Source: Vulcanimicrobiota bacterium (GTDB lineage: Bacteria > Vulcanimicrobiota > Xenobia > Xenobiales > JADMJV01). From it: DNA of 64,000 nucleotides. Position 1 is the stretch's first letter. Every line of letters begins with the position of its first letter. Positions 44,544 through 52,162 of the stretch are shown here, one piece after another. The notes beneath the pieces are model-generated. The model had not been told where the DNA came from. It saw only the letters and a list, made by a program, of their open reading frames with translations, and did not search any database. A program made the position numbers and the translations under genes. Location: contig JAHBVR010000009.1 in the NCBI GenBank assembly GCA_019637395.1, positions 186,001-250,000 of the forward strand. The letters run 5' to 3'.

Positions 44544-44581
44544 TCGGCACAAGAATTGTGGCAAATCGAACAGTGTTTGGA

Positions 44582-44610
44582 TTGACTCGCACATGTCTGA
44601 GTACTATACT
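44582..44610 (+). promoter_or_regulatory. Strong sigma70-type promoter
   Basis: TTGACT (44582-44587), a 17-base spacer and TATACT (44605-44610) match the consensus at ten of twelve positions. Expected start of transcription is about 44617. It points to the terminator at 44683-44713 and to the GH26-like gene beyond. Confidence 0.7.
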
Positions 44611-44616
44611 GTGGCT

Positions 44617-44713
44617 CAAGAGTCTTGCGGACTTCCCCCGGGAAGCTCCACCCAAGTGGGTACTCTGGTTCCTCCATGTTCGAAGGCACCCTGAAAAGGG
44701 TGCCTTTTCTTTT
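44617..44713 (+). ncRNA. Candidate small RNA or attenuated leader (about 97 nt)
   Basis: A short unit between the strong promoter and an intrinsic terminator, with no ORF of note. The transcript can fold: AGAGT near 44621 pairs with ACTCT near 44662, closing a junction with two inner hairpins (CTTCC-CCCG-GGAAG and ACCC-AAGT-GGGT), then the terminator stem. I do not match it to a known riboswitch or RNA family. It could be a stand-alone small RNA or the leader of the gene at 44732. Boundaries are inferred from the promoter and terminator. Confidence 0.4.
44683..44713 (+). terminator. Intrinsic terminator or attenuator before the GH26-like gene
   Basis: Perfect nine-base-pair stem AAGGCACCC (44683-44691) with GGGTGCCTT (44698-44706), a six-base loop and a T-rich tail. 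It stands between the promoter and the gene start 18 bases later, so it must be read through for that promoter to serve the gene. Confidence 0.85.
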
Positions 44714-44731
44714 GTCCCGAAAGCCGGCCAG

Positions 44732-46357
44732 TTGAAAAAAATCGTCTGGCTTACCCTCCTGGGCCTGAGCGGCTGCGGCAGCCCCACCACCACGCCGCCT
44801 CCGGCCACCCGCAGCTACAGTCCTCATCCCGTGCGGGCTACGCCCCGGCCATCGGCCGCCGAGGCCACCCCCCAGCCTTTGTCCAGTCCCACTCCCAAGC
44901 CCAAAGAGACGTCCAAAGCGAGCCTGGTGCTGCCCTCACCCGACCGGATGGACGCGAAAAACCTGGGCGCTCCCGACGACCCCAGCAGCGCCGCCAGCTG
45001 GCGCACCTTTGCGGAAAATTGCGTAAAACAAAAAGCCTTCGCTCAGGCCTCCCGGGCCTTTGCCCGCGAAGCGGCCATCTACCGCCAGAAAGGCGATCCC
45101 CAGGCGGCCATCGTGGAGCAACTCAAATCCGACCGCTATCGCACTCAAATCGAACTCTTCTACTGGCGCCCTTCCGATGATCCGGTGCGACCGCTGGCCC
45201 GGCTGGAACCCTCTCAAGGCTGCATGGTGGGCGCCTTTGTGGACCGAGACGACAGCCTGGAAAAGCATATGTTCGGCCCGCAATTGCACGGCGACATTCC
45301 TCAGTTCAACACTCTGACCGGAAAGCGGCACGCCAGCTTCTTCACTTACCTCAGCCTGCAGCGCGAGTTTCCCCGCCCCTGGGCCGACTACGTGCGCGAG
45401 CAGGGAGCCATTCCTCACCTGGCCTGGGAGCCGTCCAACCTGGCTCAGGTCACGCCTCAATTAATGGAGACTTTCGTGGATGCCCTGGTCGACTACAACG
45501 GACCGGTAATCATCCGTTTCGCCAGCGAAATGAACGGCGAATGGACGCGCTACCACAGTGACCCGGCCCGCTATCGCCAGGTTTTCCGTGAACTCTACCA
45601 GGCCATGCGGCGCGCTCCCAAGGCCGCTCTGCTCTGGTGCCCCAACGCCATGCCGGCGGACAACATCGACGAGTATTATCCCGGCGACGACGGTTGTGAT
45701 TGGGTGGGCGTGAATTTCTACAGCGTGCTCTACCTGGACAACGACCCCAAACGGCCCGGCGACTGGATCCATCCCATTGATTTGCTCAACTCGGTCTACT
45801 CGAAATATTCCCAGCGCAAACCCATCGCCATCGGCGAATACGCGGCCAGCCACCAGTCGGTGCTCAGTCCCACCCCCAAGCTCGACTTCGCGCGTATCAA
45901 AATGGCCCAGCTTTACGAGAGCCTGCCTTTACTTTATCAGGACGTCAAACTGGTAAGCTGGTATGATTGCGACAACATTACCAAAGCTCGTAGCGAACGC
46001 CAGCTCAACAACTTTCGTCTGACCGATCAAGAGGATATCTTGGGCGACTATAAACGGTGGGTCTCCAATCCCTGGTACCTGGGGGCCGGACAAAGTTCCG
46101 CCTCCCGCCAGGCCTGCGCCTTTCCCAAACGGCTGCCGGGTTCGGTGGAAGTGCAGCCCTGGGTGCGCACCTATGAGCCGAATCCTCAGGTATTTCTGCG
46201 TCTGGACGGGCGGCTGATGCATGTCCAACAGCTGCCGGAAGGCGGCAAGTTTCGCCTGCCCTCGCTGAAAAGCGGCCAGCACAAGCTGGAAGTGCTGGTC
46301 TACGAGCCTTCGGGCCGCTTTATCCAGAAACGCGTCTTCCCTTACACCCTCGACTGA
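44732..46357 (+). CDS. GH26-like glycoside hydrolase lipoprotein
   Basis: A 541-residue predicted lipoprotein. A TTG start at 44732 gives the signal KKIVWLTLLGLSGC with lipobox LSGC; the upstream part of the frame is non-conserved. A Pro/Thr-rich linker and a helical segment precede a TIM-barrel domain like family 26 glycoside hydrolases (beta-mannanases and relatives): acid/base Glu in RFASEMNGEW (E266) and nucleophile Glu in IAIGEYA (E369), with GAFVDRDD and DWVGVNFYS nearby. A C-terminal beta domain of about 100 residues follows. The substrate cannot be named. The membrane protein gene at 46403 follows on the same strand. Confidence 0.82.
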   Translation: MKKIVWLTLLGLSGCGSPTTTPPPATRSYSPHPVRATPRPSAAEATPQPLSSPTPKPKETSKASLVLPSPDRMDAKNLGAPDDPSSAASWRTFAENCVKQKAFAQASRAFAREAAIYRQKGDPQAAIVEQLKSDRYRTQIELFYWRPSDDPVRPLARLEPSQGCMVGAFVDRDDSLEKHMFGPQLHGDIPQFNTLTGKRHASFFTYLSLQREFPRPWADYVREQGAIPHLAWEPSNLAQVTPQLMETFVDALVDYNGPVIIRFASEMNGEWTRYHSDPARYRQVFRELYQAMRRAPKAALLWCPNAMPADNIDEYYPGDDGCDWVGVNFYSVLYLDNDPKRPGDWIHPIDLLNSVYSKYSQRKPIAIGEYAASHQSVLSPTPKLDFARIKMAQLYESLPLLYQDVKLVSWYDCDNITKARSERQLNNFRLTDQEDILGDYKRWVSNPWYLGAGQSSASRQACAFPKRLPGSVEVQPWVRTYEPNPQVFLRLDGRLMHVQQLPEGGKFRLPSLKSGQHKLEVLVYEPSGRFIQKRVFPYTLD

Positions 46358-46402: not shown

Positions 46403-48526
46403 ATGTTCAAGTCCCGGTGGGCCGCGCGCTTCCTTCTCAGCTTTCTATGCCTGGCCACTTTCTTTTTAGGCTATGAAATCTGGCCCTGGCAGTTGGGCAA
46501 CCCGGTCGACCTGCAGGGAGATGTCCTGCAGTGCACGCGCCTGCTCAAATCGGTGACTGAACCGGGCGGCGAGTACCGCTGCCAATTCCTGGGAGCACCT
46601 TTCATCGCCGAGCATTATGGATTTCCCGACCCCTTTGTCATTCATCATCCTTTGCTCTGGCTGCTTTCCTTAGTGACCAAAAACATCTATCTGGTGCTCA
46701 ACCTGATTTTACTGCTGACCTTTTGGAGCGCGGGCCTGGTAGCCTATGAAGTGCTCCTGAGACTGGGCTGCCGCTCGGCCGTGGCCGTACCCATCGCCTG
46801 GATCTACGCCAGCCTGCCCAACCACCTGGAGCGCTATGATCATTGGAGTCTGGCTTTTTACGCCAGCGCTCCCCTGGCCATTCTCTACGCGGTGCGCTGC
46901 CTGCGCGGCGAGCGACTGAGCCGCCTGGAGTTGCTGCTCGCTCCCTTGTGCGGCCTGTTCGGCGCCTATTTCGCCTTCTTTAGCTATTTTATCGTGCTGG
47001 CCGCCGGCCTGCTAGGAGCCTGGTTCAGACGCAGTCTATATCCGCTGCGCCCAGCCTTTCAGGTTTGCACGCTCATCGGTCTGGCCTTCCTGCTGGCTCT
47101 CTGGCCCGCCCTCAAGGGAAAGAGCGCCGATTCCGCCTTTATGCCCCCACGCCAACCCACCGATCTGACCCGTTGGGCGCTGAACCTCGATCGGCTGGTG
47201 CTACCGGCGCACAGCCGCAAGGGCCACCCCCTCTACAAGATTGCCCGCCGCTACTACGCCAACTTTCCCGCTCCCAGCGAAACGGATGAATCACCCTACC
47301 TGGGCGTGCTGGCCGTGCTGGGCGCACTGGTGTTGTTTCTGGGCCGAGGTAAGAACCAGCCGGACTTCCCTCATCTCAGGGTACTGGCCACCGTCATCTT
47401 CCTGACGGCCACCGTGGGTGGCTTCAGCGAGCTGTTCACGCTGGTGATCGGACCGGCCATCCGTTGCTACAATCGAATCTCCTTCTACCTGGCCTTCGTG
47501 TTGCTGGCCGCACTGGCCTTGCGGCTGCAGCAGGTGCGCTGGACACGCGGCCGCTGGTTGGCCCTGGGCCTGATCAGCCTATTGGGTTTCATCGACCAGT
47601 TGACCAGTGTACCCAGGCGCAGCCCTTCTCGGTGGGCCGAGCAAGTGCGCTCCGACCGCGAATTCGTAGCCGCTCTGGAAGCACGTCTGCCCCGATCGGC
47701 GCGCCTCTGGCAATACCCCTATGTGGCCTATCCCGAGACGCCCCCACTTTTCCAGGAAGGCTACTATGGTCTGGGACGTTGCTATTCCGTATCCAGCAAG
47801 CTCCACTGGAGCTGGGGAGCCTTGCGGGGCAGCAGCCAGGAGCGCTTTCAGTCAGCCTTCACCACTCTGGCTCTGCCACAGCAGCTCGAACTCTTGAGAC
47901 AAACCGGGTTCGCCGGCCTGACCGTGGAACGCCGAGCCTTCCCCGACAATGGCGCCGAACTGGAAGCTCAGTTGCACAGTCTGGGATTAAAGCCGGAGGT
48001 GCAGAGTCCGGACGGATTCCTTGTCTACTACCCCCTGGACAAGGCCGCGACCGTTGACCAGGCCGAGTCGCAACGGATCTTTGAGAACAAATTGATCGAG
48101 CTCAGTTGGAATGATGGCAAGATCGATTTCGGTCGGGGAGGCTGGGGCAACCTCTACCTGCGGGCCGGCTGGAGCGACCCCGAGGACAGTGGCTACTGGA
48201 CGGTGCAGAAAAGCGGCTTTGTCCGGTTGCCGTGCCCCCCCGGACAGCACTCCGCAGTGGGCCTAAAAATTCTCATCTATCCCTATATCGGTCGCCCCAA
48301 GGTGCAGCGGCTGCAGATTTTCCAGGCTGGCGAGCGGCTGGCCTGGTTCGAATTCCGCACCGGCAAGCACCACTGGATTCACTTTAACGCCAAACTGCCC
48401 GCCCTCTTGGAACTACGCGTGGAACGCCCCACCCAGCCATCCTTCGAGTTTGAATCCGATACTCGCAGTCTGGGCGTAAAACTTGAAAGGCTCGAGGTCG
48501 TCGAGCCTTTCAAGAATCCCTATTGA
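46403..48526 (+). CDS. Multi-span GT-C-like membrane protein with C-terminal beta domain
   Basis: A 707-residue protein with about ten to twelve membrane spans in the first 420 residues, of the kind seen in GT-C glycosyltransferases and YfhO-like proteins (large lumenal loop after the first span with DLQGDVLQ, later DESPYLGVLAVLGALVLF). The remaining part is soluble; a segment with WGNLYLRAGWSDPEDSGYWT resembles DUF7024-type beta domains found behind such transporters. Likely role is transfer or processing of envelope glycans, in keeping with the glycoside hydrolase upstream. The nucleotide sequence at the end of the gene forms a perfect hairpin (48482-48514). Confidence 0.7.
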   Translation: MFKSRWAARFLLSFLCLATFFLGYEIWPWQLGNPVDLQGDVLQCTRLLKSVTEPGGEYRCQFLGAPFIAEHYGFPDPFVIHHPLLWLLSLVTKNIYLVLNLILLLTFWSAGLVAYEVLLRLGCRSAVAVPIAWIYASLPNHLERYDHWSLAFYASAPLAILYAVRCLRGERLSRLELLLAPLCGLFGAYFAFFSYFIVLAAGLLGAWFRRSLYPLRPAFQVCTLIGLAFLLALWPALKGKSADSAFMPPRQPTDLTRWALNLDRLVLPAHSRKGHPLYKIARRYYANFPAPSETDESPYLGVLAVLGALVLFLGRGKNQPDFPHLRVLATVIFLTATVGGFSELFTLVIGPAIRCYNRISFYLAFVLLAALALRLQQVRWTRGRWLALGLISLLGFIDQLTSVPRRSPSRWAEQVRSDREFVAALEARLPRSARLWQYPYVAYPETPPLFQEGYYGLGRCYSVSSKLHWSWGALRGSSQERFQSAFTTLALPQQLELLRQTGFAGLTVERRAFPDNGAELEAQLHSLGLKPEVQSPDGFLVYYPLDKAATVDQAESQRIFENKLIELSWNDGKIDFGRGGWGNLYLRAGWSDPEDSGYWTVQKSGFVRLPCPPGQHSAVGLKILIYPYIGRPKVQRLQIFQAGERLAWFEFRTGKHHWIHFNAKLPALLELRVERPTQPSFEFESDTRSLGVKLERLEVVEPFKNPY
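48482..48514 (+). other. Perfect 14-bp hairpin inside the 3' end of the GT-C-like gene
   Basis: CTTGAAAGGCTCGA, loop GGTCG, TCGAGCCTTTCAAG: fourteen uninterrupted base pairs, ending ten bases before the stop codon, without a T-run. It lies between two convergent genes whose stops are six bases apart and may protect or end both mRNAs. Confidence 0.7.
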
Positions 48527-48532
48527 CCGGTT

Positions 48533-49123
48533 TTACCCGAACGGGATGAACTGAGTGGCCGGGAAAAGAGCGATGGCACCGGTTCCCTGGCCGAACAGGG
48601 GCTGGCCCGGAAAGGTGCCCCCGAAGGAGGCAAACGGCGAAGCTCCGGGGGGCACGAAGGTGTTGTTGAAGGACGCAAACGGCGAAGCACCCGAGGGAAC
48701 GAAAACATTGTTGAACGAAGCGAAGGGCGCCGCATTCCCCACAAAGACGTTGTTAAACGAGGCGAAAGGCGAGGCGCCTGAGGGTACAAACACATTGTTA
48801 AACGAGGCAAACGGAGCGGGCTGGCTGGGAAACAGGCTGTTGCCGCCGGATGCGAACGGCGAAGCGCCGGAGGGCACGAACACATTGTTGAACGAGGCGA
48901 AAGGGGCGGGCTGGCTGGGAAACAGACTGTTACCGCCGAGAATATCCAGATAGCTCCCCTGCAATTGGCCCAGGGCGCCGAGAGCGAAACCGGCCGTCTG
49001 CTGAATCTGAAAGGCTCCAAAGTTAGAACCCGTGTAGGGCACATTGTTGGTGGCGAAACTACTCGCAAAAGACGTCTGAAAATTGAACTGAGTGTTAAAA
49101 CCGAAACCCGAGATGCCGGCCAT
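48533..49123 (-). CDS. Repeat protein with SFNNVFVPSGASPFA-type units
   Basis: A 196-residue protein with a strong GGAGG ribosome binding site. Residues 1-40 are Phe/Asn/Ser-rich. Residues 41-64 hold a motif (QQTAGFALGALGQLQGS ... ILGG) shared with the next gene. Residues about 63-172 are six to seven tandem units of 14-15 residues built on PFASFNNVFVPSGAS, two of them with GGNSLFPSQPA instead. There is no Sec signal peptide, membrane span or cysteine. Composition and repeat pattern recall extracellular adhesive or fibre-forming proteins. A shifted overlapping frame (48520-49068) encodes an Arg/Pro/Ser-rich shadow and is rejected. Confidence 0.8.
   Translation of the reverse strand: MAGISGFGFNTQFNFQTSFASSFATNNVPYTGSNFGAFQIQQTAGFALGALGQLQGSYLDILGGNSLFPSQPAPFASFNNVFVPSGASPFASGGNSLFPSQPAPFASFNNVFVPSGASPFASFNNVFVGNAAPFASFNNVFVPSGASPFASFNNTFVPPGASPFASFGGTFPGQPLFGQGTGAIALFPATQFIPFG
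48608..48937 (-). repeat. 45-bp coding repeat array in the SFNNVF protein
   Basis: Six to seven direct units of 45 bp (one of 42) encoding PFAS-FNNVFVPSGAS or PFAS-GGNSLFPSQPA. The pair GGNSLFPSQPA-PFASFNNVFVPSGAS occurs twice in a row with nearly the same bases, which points to a recent 90-bp duplication. Confidence 0.85.
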
Positions 49124-49207
49124 TTAGTCCCTCCTAGTACTCTCTATATCTTACTCTATCATGGTCAGAATCGGTGATCTTGGGAACTATCTAACCATTA
49201 ATATTCG

Positions 49208-52162
49208 TTAGGATTCGTCTTCTTCTTCGCCCGCCTCGGCCTCTTCCTGAGCGGCCTGATTTTGCTGCGATTCAGTCATTTCGCCCGGCTTTTTAGCGGG
49301 CTGGAGAGGGGCTTGGTCGGACTGATCCGGTAGCTGAACCACCGGTCCCACGCGCTGCTCAATGAACCGACGTAATTGCTCGCTGGCGGCCCGCCCCTCC
49401 TGGGTGCTGCCCGCCGAATTGAGCATCATTTGGGCCGCCCCCGCCGTCTTGGGGTCCGAGCCGAGGCGTTGGTAGAGCTTGGTAATGCTGTCGGCGCCCT
49501 TCAAGCTGCCGGCGGCGGCCAGTTGCATCTTTACTTCCGAGGCGGCCGCGGCCGGATTGCTGGAGAGGTTGGCATAGAGGTCACCGAGGGCCTTGCGCCC
49601 GCCCTTGCTCTTGGCGGCGGTTGCCTCCAGAGCCACCGCCGCAGCGGCCGCGCGGGAATTCTTGGCCAGGTTGTTGTTGAGCTTCAGCTTGGCGGCCAGG
49701 CCGGCCGGGTCGCGAGTGGCGGCCGCCTGCATGGCCACGGCCGGACCGGCCGAAGTGGCGAAGCGGGCCTGATTCTCGTTCATCACCGTAATGGCTTCCA
49801 GGCCGTCCTTGGTGTCGCTGGCGGCGGCCTGCAGTTTCATTTCGGAAGCGGCCGCCTTGGGATCAGCGGCCAGGCCCTGATTGTAGCGGGCCAGACCGGC
49901 CCGGCCCTCGCGGGTGGTGGTGGCGGTGGCCCGCATCTGAGCGGCCGCGGCCGCCGCCTCCGGATCCCTGGCCAGGTTGGTATTGAGATTCATAACCGCT
50001 TCCCGACCCTGAGCCGACTCGGCCGCCGTGCCCATAAGCACGGCCTGACTGGCGGCGCCGTCGGCATTCTTGGCCAGATTGCGGTTGAGTTGGGTGAGCG
50101 CCTTGCGGCCGGTATCGGTGCTGCTGGCCGAAGCCTGGAGCTCGACGGCCGCGGCCGCCGATTCAGGGGTCCTGGCCAGATTACGGTTGAGCTGAGCGTA
50201 GGCCGCCATGCCGCCGGGAGTGCTGGTGGCGGTGGCCTGGAACTCAGCCACCGCCGTGGAGGCGCCCGCATCCTTGGCCACATTGTGGTTAAACTCGGTG
50301 GCGGCCTTAAGGCCCTCGGGCGACTGGCTGGCGGCCGCCTGCATGGCCATGGTGGCGCCGGCCGCCGCCTTGTCTTTGGCCAGACCCTTGTAGAACCCCT
50401 CGATGGCCTGGCGACCTTCGCTGGTGCCGCTGGCCGCCGCCTGGACACCCATGGCCGCGCCCGCATCGGCGGAGTCTTTGGCCAGATTGCCGTTGAGCTG
50501 TGTGAGCGCAGCCCGGCCGCCGGCCGACTGGACGGCCGCACTTTGCAGCGCCACCGCCGAGGTGGCGGCCAGCGGGTCTTTGGCCAGGTTCTGGTTGAGC
50601 TTACGGATGGAGGCAGCGCCCTCGGCAGTGCTGCTGGCCATGGACTGAAGGGAAAGCGCGGAAGCCGCGCTGGCGCCTCCTTGAGCCATACGGCGATTGT
50701 GCTGAGTAACTACGGCCAGCCCTTCGCTGCTGTCGCTGGCCGAGGCCATCATGGCCATCTGGCCGGCCGAGGCAGCGGGGCTGTTGGACAGATTTCGCTG
50801 CAACTCTTCGCTACCCGGCCCCTTAACCTGAACTTCCAGGGCAGCGCTGGAAGCCTGAGAATCCTGGGAAAGATTGGAGAACAGCTCGCCCAACGCGATC
50901 ATACCCTTGCCCGTGCGGCTGGCGGAAGCCCAGGAACTGGCCAGTTGTCCACCATTGGCGGCGTCGTCCTTGAAAAGGGAGGTGAGGGCACCGCGACCTT
51001 CGGGAGTTTGCGAGGCGGCGGCGTGCAGCCCAACTCCCGAGCCGGCCGTGGAGGCGTCGCCATCCAGAGCCGACATGACGTTGGCAACCGCCGTTCCGGC
51101 ACCTCCGCGGCTGGCGGCGGCCTGAGCCTGCACGGCCGCTGAGGCGGCTTGAGGATCTTTGGACAGGTTGGAATAGAGCGTAGCGATGGCGGCCTTGCCG
51201 CCCGACGAACCGGAGGCCGATTCTTGGGCTTTAGCATCCGCGGCGGCGGCATTGGAATTGCCGGCCAGGCTGCGGTAGTAGTCGGTCATCGCCCCCCTGC
51301 CCTCTCCGCTAGAGGAAGCTGTGGCCTGCACCATCATGTAACCGGCGGCCAGCTTGGGGTCGCTGGCGATCATATAGAGGTAATCGGTGCCGCCGCCGGA
51401 GAGATTGTCGGCAATCGCCTTCTGGTTGGCGGCGGCCAGAGTAGGACTGCTTTGAATCGAGTCCAGCAGGCGCGCTTCTAACTCGCTGCCTGCACTGATC
51501 AGCGTGCCGCGCGCCTTGACCAACATGGAAGCGGCGCTGGCATCTCCCAGCAGCTGGGAAAGGGCTTGAGCGGGCGAGGGGCCACCCGGAGCGGCGTCCA
51601 TGTCCGAAGAGAGCCAGGAGAGGAACGATTCGGCCTTGCCGGTGTCTCCCATTGCTTCGGACAGGCGCAGCTTGGGATCACGAGCGTTCTCGATATCTCT
51701 GGCTTCCTTGGCCTGGCGGGCCTGCTCGGCTCGGCGATTGAGTTCATCGACCTCAGCCTGGAGAAGCAACGATTGCAGAGAGCGCGGCGCGGGAGGTCGG
51801 GCTTCCGGCTCAGATTTCTCGGCGGCCTTTTCGGCCGGCTTTTCGCCGGACATCTGCTTCATCAAGCCAAAGGCCGACTTATTCGAGGGAGTGAAGCCAC
51901 TGGAAGGGGGAGGGGCAGGAGCTTCTTCTTCGGGAGCGGGAGGCGGCTCGGGTAGCGTCAACTCGCCACCCAGAATGCCCAAAAAGCTCCCCTGCAACTG
52001 ACCTACGGCCGAGAGCGCGATCCGAGCCGTTTGCTGCGTTTGCTGGGTCGACAGGTCCAGCGGCCGGGTTTGAGGACCGACCAGGGGCAGGATTGGCCCC
52101 ACAGGACCCCCTACATTGCCAAGCGGATTATTCGAGCCGACTCCCTGGACGCCGAAGGCCAT
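49208..52162 (-). CDS. Large helical 34-residue-repeat protein
   Basis: A 984-residue protein. Residues 41-66 contain the motif QQTQQTARIALSAVGQLQGS ... ILGG shared with the neighbouring repeat gene. A Pro/Glu-rich linker and a helical, charged region (about 128-170) follow. From residue 256 to 922 about twenty units of 34 residues run in tandem, of the form G-R-x-A-L-x-x-L-N-x-N-L-A-K-D-P-x-A-A-A-x-A-V-x-L-Q-A-x-A-S-S-T-x-E. The tail is acidic (EEEAEAGEEEDES). There is no signal peptide and no cysteine. It is not TPR, HEAT or TALE-like by its key residues. Likely a long alpha-solenoid or coiled fibre. Confidence 0.82.
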   Translation of the reverse strand: MAFGVQGVGSNNPLGNVGGPVGPILPLVGPQTRPLDLSTQQTQQTARIALSAVGQLQGSFLGILGGELTLPEPPPAPEEEAPAPPPSSGFTPSNKSAFGLMKQMSGEKPAEKAAEKSEPEARPPAPRSLQSLLLQAEVDELNRRAEQARQAKEARDIENARDPKLRLSEAMGDTGKAESFLSWLSSDMDAAPGGPSPAQALSQLLGDASAASMLVKARGTLISAGSELEARLLDSIQSSPTLAAANQKAIADNLSGGGTDYLYMIASDPKLAAGYMMVQATASSSGEGRGAMTDYYRSLAGNSNAAAADAKAQESASGSSGGKAAIATLYSNLSKDPQAASAAVQAQAAASRGGAGTAVANVMSALDGDASTAGSGVGLHAAASQTPEGRGALTSLFKDDAANGGQLASSWASASRTGKGMIALGELFSNLSQDSQASSAALEVQVKGPGSEELQRNLSNSPAASAGQMAMMASASDSSEGLAVVTQHNRRMAQGGASAASALSLQSMASSTAEGAASIRKLNQNLAKDPLAATSAVALQSAAVQSAGGRAALTQLNGNLAKDSADAGAAMGVQAAASGTSEGRQAIEGFYKGLAKDKAAAGATMAMQAAASQSPEGLKAATEFNHNVAKDAGASTAVAEFQATATSTPGGMAAYAQLNRNLARTPESAAAAVELQASASSTDTGRKALTQLNRNLAKNADGAASQAVLMGTAAESAQGREAVMNLNTNLARDPEAAAAAAQMRATATTTREGRAGLARYNQGLAADPKAAASEMKLQAAASDTKDGLEAITVMNENQARFATSAGPAVAMQAAATRDPAGLAAKLKLNNNLAKNSRAAAAAVALEATAAKSKGGRKALGDLYANLSSNPAAAASEVKMQLAAAGSLKGADSITKLYQRLGSDPKTAGAAQMMLNSAGSTQEGRAASEQLRRFIEQRVGPVVQLPDQSDQAPLQPAKKPGEMTESQQNQAAQEEAEAGEEEDES
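49397..51397 (-). repeat. 102-bp (34-residue) tandem repeat array
   Basis: About twenty coding units, most exactly 102 bp; the first seven vary from 28 to 34 residues and the later thirteen are all 34. Conserved positions are Gly at 1, Leu/Tyr/Met near 8, Asn near 9-11, Leu-Ala near 12-13, Ala runs at 18-23 and Ala-x-Ala-Ser near 27-30. Base sequence differs between units, so the array is old rather than a recent expansion. Confidence 0.88.

Follow-up and report, generated by a model that had tools for sequence, protein, structure and literature searches.

The window analysed here, a stretch of 64,000 nucleotides of Vulcanimicrobiota bacterium DNA (GenBank assembly GCA_019637395.1, contig JAHBVR010000009.1, positions 186,001 to 250,000), carries two adjacent genes, S and R, whose products begin with the same leader and continue with unrelated repeats. 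The leader is one version of a module that is dispersed over the source genome, is uncharged and amphipathic, contains a single helix and stands before a variety of bodies. As about 17 scattered proteins of the source genome carry versions of it, we read the module as a sorting tag rather than a one-off duplication, and consider it somewhat probable that this is a mobile tag, for export or assembly, of one lineage, here named Eremiobacterota. More tentatively, the module might address proteins to an export or surface-assembly route not yet described, serving some 15-20 unrelated proteins per genome, with collagen-like fibres, calcium-loop proteins and multi-core protease-inhibitor peptides among its cargo; we regard this joint claim as possible and rather doubtful.

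Two adjacent genes with one leader

R and S lie head to tail in that order on the minus strand, which carries all features of the locus, 84 bp apart. Gene S (48533..49123; open reading frame (ORF) and translation) encodes 196 amino acids, in which the leader is followed by 15-residue Phe/Asn/Ser repeats, while gene R (49208..52162; ORF) encodes 984 amino acids, comprising the leader, an acidic, Pro-rich linker and an Ala-rich alpha-solenoid. The sequence-only reading of the window had reported the motif QQTA-x2-AL-x-A-x-GQLQGS-x-L-x-ILGG in both proteins, and an exact pattern match recovered it in each. The range given at that time, residues 41-66, needed a slight adjustment to residues 41-64 in S (48932..49003) and 43-66 in R (51965..52036). 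The whole leader module, as delimited with the A1/A2/A3 profiles described below, covers residues 1-64 of S (48932..49123), where an uncharged G/F/N/S/Q-rich segment precedes an amphipathic helix, and residues 1-66 of R (51965..52162). In BLASTP the two N-termini are 70% identical over 27 amino acids (E 8e-10 for the single comparison), and the leader regions are 69% identical at the DNA level. The annotated N-terminus of S is very probably the real start, because a good match to AGGAGG serves as ribosome-binding site (AGGAGGG at 49129..49135, read directly from the sequence); the start is also kept in the orthologs.

The repeats behind the two leaders are unrelated, as the same reading had held. 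In S, five copies of the PFASFNNVFVPSGAS type of 15-residue repeat were found by pattern (48620..48904, limits approximate). In R, autocorrelation peaks solely at a period of 34 residues (0.27 vs about 0.12), with two helices per repeat. AlphaFold2 (five sequences) modelled the R body as an alpha-solenoid over residues 129-940 (49343..51778), with a predicted local distance difference test (pLDDT) score mostly above 90 and at least 90 over most of the body. The Pro/Glu-rich linker before it (residues 67-128; 51779..51964) is predicted to be disordered, with pLDDT mostly below 50. The absence of a Sec signal was also borne out: K and R are missing from the first 10 residues of both proteins, and a Sec-like N-terminus was found in neither. 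Neither protein has a family match in Pfam or NCBIfam.

Further carriers of the module

Used as the sole query, the S motif stretch gave confident matches in its own genome only to R and S, and a wider profile was therefore needed. (Weak matches of this stretch on contigs C6 and C1 were dismissed, the better gene candidate there being on the opposite strand.) A first profile was built from nine R/S-type leaders and then widened in two rounds (A1/A2/A3). In the source genome, the R/S-leader profile reached two proteins that were not part of it, at C34:54105 (E 3e-6) and C36:20827 (E 2e-4), and in congeners it found relatives down to E 3e-8. Since proteins outside the profile were reached, the likeness of R and S is not due to chance. 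S itself was matched at E 1e-24 by the A2 profile (hmmsearch).

With the widened profiles, 17 members were counted in the source genome (G000, a 7.66 Mb draft), 14-19 in each of four congeners (G001-G004; 19 in G001), 5 in a genome of the same family (G005) and 8 in one of the next family (G006), these counts resting on the genome search tool. All seven carriers thus come from a single genus, from the rest of its family or from the adjacent family. Searching the remaining 141 genomes of the phylum yielded a single weak match (E 0.03). The E-values of the later profiles are flattering, because these profiles were trained on the same members that they recover; their empirical control is that one weak match among the 141 non-carrier genomes. 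The members of the source genome lie at C36:20824, C12:234331, C17:19465, C36:234929 (S), C1:106425, C31:158657, C7:142585, C12:169894, C31:174142, C34:54099, C36:237965 (R), C33:204808, C20:55919, C8:194639, C30:2758, C36:31734 and C33:29745. No relatives were found among plasmids, phages and viral contigs, nor was the module seen in titles and abstracts of papers dealing with secretion or collagen-like proteins in Eremiobacterota.

Anatomy of the module

The module opens with about 35-45 uncharged, disordered residues rich in G/F/S/A/Q/P/N, followed by a helix of about 20 residues and a W/Y/F-x-G-phi-phi-G turn, altogether about 65 residues. The stretch after the turn is Pro/Gly-rich, and a loose linker precedes the body. 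The sequence-only reading had proposed a search for more proteins with GQLQGS-x-L-x-ILGG. More carriers did exist in the genome and its relatives, but the core conserved across them is broader than that string: it is L-x3-W/Y/F-x-G-phi-phi-G following the uncharged amphipathic helix, within the W-anchored consensus Q-x2-Q-x-LLxxLLxALxQLxxxW-x-G-phi-phi-G. Column frequencies were taken from 70 members aligned on the aromatic residue (position 0), which is W, Y or F in 68, 25 and 5%. It is followed by G at +2 (71%) and +5 (77%), and column +6 holds G in 42%, Q in 15%, N in 11% and P in 10%. Upstream, L occupies -4 (82%) and -7 (65%), A -8 (61%) and L/I/M -10 (51/24/15%), with Q at -5, -16 and -19 (64-68% each). 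The anchor turn reads F-L-G in R and Y-L-D in S, and both leaders end in GG.

The helix carries Leu/Ile/Met on one face and Gln/Ser on the other. Its helical moment is 0.41 vs 0.20 for shuffled sequences (p<0.05 in 32 of 47 members), and charged residues make up 2.5% of helix plus turn vs 11.8% of the bodies. A second helix after the turn was not found: the longest run free of Pro and Gly there has a median of 6 residues and reaches at least 18 in only 4 of 63 members. The module usually stands at the true N-terminus, and its anchor is at most 100 residues from the ORF start in 61 of 68 members (median residue 62). AlphaFold2 placed a lone helix at the leader, with low confidence, in both models made, of R and of the C34 protein. 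The latter has a mean pLDDT of 42, and for this reason its model was used just for the lone helix (residues 42-66) and not for a fold search. Neither Pfam nor NCBIfam contains a model of the module, and a 34-column profile run against the PDB gave only chance matches to scaffold fusions.

Bodies behind the module

The bodies are mutually unrelated. They include collagen-like GNAG proteins, EF-hand/FG-GAP/dockerin-like calcium loops, multi-core microviridin precursors, the ARM/HEAT-like solenoid of R, the F/N repeats of S and several unnamed conserved globular bodies. When starts were screened crudely for charge plus a hydrophobic window, 0 of the 68 members looked Sec-like, compared with 29 positives among 141 background ORFs. 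As bodies of these kinds are typically extracellular, the module proteins may well act outside the cytoplasm.

Multi-core microviridin precursors are a known system (PMC5934393), with which several module proteins share the PFFxRYLEGQ leader and many TxKFPSD-type cores; in contrast to the known precursors, they have about 65 extra residues, with the module, ahead of that leader. We observed microviridin-type precursors with up to about 12 core repeats, each behind the module, at L245:2-997, L246:1-624, L254:3350-4237 and L259:3581-4321. Three score far above the NCBIfam NF033738 (microviridin) cut-off of 26 bits (L245 178, L246 96 and L254 160), whereas L259 is microviridin-type by motif only.

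Origin of the R leader

The closest structures to the R body in the PDB were of the ARM/HEAT type, designed as well as natural, with Z up to 13.8 and many tied rows, a likeness to be read with the caution due to helical repeats. A paralog of R on contig C3 of the source genome is 69% identical over residues 109-982 and leaderless. Other leaderless full-length relatives occur at G001:C34 and G003:C82, with a more distant one at G004:C172, and still more distant R-type repeats are found in genomes of other families, where the module was not found. Two large solenoid-repeat proteins related to the R body but without the module (L044:5455-10530, 1691 amino acids; L045:6203-10426, 1407 amino acids) end in a similar four-cysteine, zinc-ribbon-like domain.

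S orthologs bearing the same leader are present in all four congeners. R and S orthologs are adjacent in G001, G002 (where R is broken into two ORFs) and G003, while the S of G004 has no R beside it. In the leader tree, which rests on few columns and in which only starred forks count, the R and S leaders of G000-G003 group together (98/94), apart from the other leaders. Within this clade R leaders fall on one side and S leaders on the other, and the S leader of G004 lies outside. Because of this tree, the leaderless R paralogs and the lack of an R beside S in G004, a local duplication is well supported: R probably gained its module through fusion of a duplicated start of the adjacent S gene to a pre-existing leaderless alpha-solenoid gene. 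Such a capture would be a recent uptake of the tag by a neighbouring gene and an example of how the tag spreads.

A proposed sorting tag and alternative explanations

How module proteins are recognised, exported and finally located we infer as follows. The disordered segment and the helix would be read jointly by a shared receptor, exporter or assembly partner, and proteins without a Sec signal would thereby be sent to the same place, either outside the cytoplasm or to the cell surface. The sequence-only reading had suggested a common secretion, docking or polymerisation tag. Its core stands, as an N-terminal module is dispersed over many unlike, Sec-less bodies; the module may serve export, docking or polymerisation. 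Sorting tags found on unlike proteins have time and again led to whole transport or surface-assembly systems. Here, the module marks a set of proteins that are probably exported but would escape ordinary signal-peptide prediction, and its profile lets this protein set be listed in any related genome.

Several observations weigh against a sorting tag. The motif is C-terminal in one orthologous group (L125, L136, L154, L168) and in L159, a position that a strictly N-terminal export signal would not take. Of EssC, C39 and the flagellar/type III gates, none was seen to track the module across the carriers as a dedicated machine. The leaderless R paralog on C3 does without any other signal, the leader region is modelled at very low confidence, and the seven carrier genomes are all at draft stage, several being metagenome assemblies.

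The two C-terminal groups would suit a docking helix, by which the module joins proteins to a common scaffold, sheath or matrix instead of guiding them through a membrane, the contacts being made by the uncharged amphipathic helix and the aromatic-Gly turn. The Gln-rich face of the helix, the N-terminal segments rich in G, F, Q and N, like those of self-associating proteins, and the many repeat or collagen-like polymer bodies agree with this. However, it is not obvious how microviridin-type precursors and EF-hand proteins would belong to a single polymer, and a common partner protein was not found, so that we rate this explanation as credible but rather unlikely. In BclA-type collagen-like exosporium proteins, a short Sec-less N-terminal leader places collagen-like proteins on the surface. 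The module resembles it as a Sec-less N-terminal tag on collagen-like bodies but differs in sequence, and its bodies are far more varied.

Flagellar and type III N-terminal signals have a disordered, uncharged, N/Q/S/G-rich start, a likeness shared by the module, and the leader composition fits a signal read by the FlhA/SctV gate. FHIPEP (FlhA/SctV) gates are present in all seven carriers, two to three of them in most family f1 genomes, and a fli/flh export operon lies at G000:C34. The gates are not specific to the module, however, as all 19 genomes searched have them, including the 12 others. No injectisome gene set was seen beside the second gate, nor was a specific injectisome link found, and the C-terminal motifs, the conserved helix and the aromatic turn do not match such signals. 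This origin is therefore improbable.

We think still less of the idea that the module is a WXG100-type signal, now degenerate, addressed to the genome's type VII (EssC) system. Like WXG100, LXG and PE-PPE leaders, the module has an N-terminal helix followed by a W-x-G turn, no Sec signal and unrelated, often Gly/Asn-rich bodies behind the conserved helix. WXG100 is also the Pfam family most often matched by members (5 of 47 module segments with E no higher than 10, the best 0.013), all below the PF06013 cut-off (the S protein of G004 has 13.4 bits vs 27.3). EssC of G000 exceeds the NCBIfam cut-off (TIGR03928, 1077 vs 778 bits), and EssC-like triple FtsK ORFs occur in G002, G003 and G004. In contrast, no EssC-like ORF was found in G001, G005 and G006, which hold 19, 5 and 8 module proteins, and the module, uncharged and about 65 residues long, lacks the second helix that true WXG100 proteins beside EssC (G004:C141) do have.

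That the module is a double-glycine leader, processed by a C39 peptidase ABC transporter that also exports the protein, is highly improbable. Many leaders do finish in hydrophobic-x-GG after a hydrophobic helix, and transporter-length C39 ORFs occur in four of the seven carriers (G000, G001, G002 and G004), but the second Gly is poorly conserved, being otherwise Q, N or P, no such ORF was found in G003 or G006 and just a weak one in G005, and cargo reaches 900 residues. Finally, local duplication of one gene start as the sole explanation, which the sequence-only reading had named as the refuting case, is half true: it accounts for the R/S pair, whose leaders are sisters, yet is refuted as a full explanation by about 15 further proteins of the genome that bear the module at unlinked sites, and deserves almost no credence.

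Neighbouring genes and export-related loci

Beside S, a glycosyl hydrolase family 26-like protein (44558-46357 of the window; E 2e-7) and an adjoining large multi-span membrane protein (46403-48526) are kept in congeners. Elsewhere in the source genome, the true EssC (L240:9384-13580; G000:C12:493-498 kb) has FHA, PP2C-like, VWA and coiled-coil neighbours; it is an EssC in a phylum outside Bacillota and Actinomycetota, and its occurrence in the genus is patchy. In each genome of the family, about 10 ORFs have matches limited to the soluble C-terminal portion of the FlhA/SctV gate (FHIPEP about 320-655), among them G000:C2:299861-301931 (L286:5825-7973), G000:C17:9355, C36:57565 and C12:513651. 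As the tandem pair on C2 starts with Sec-like signals, this export-gate domain seems to be itself exported. A shortened FlhA-like gate ORF of 519 amino acids (L288:6769-8328; G000:C1) lies near a flagellar-rod-like protein with a Sec-like signal of its own.

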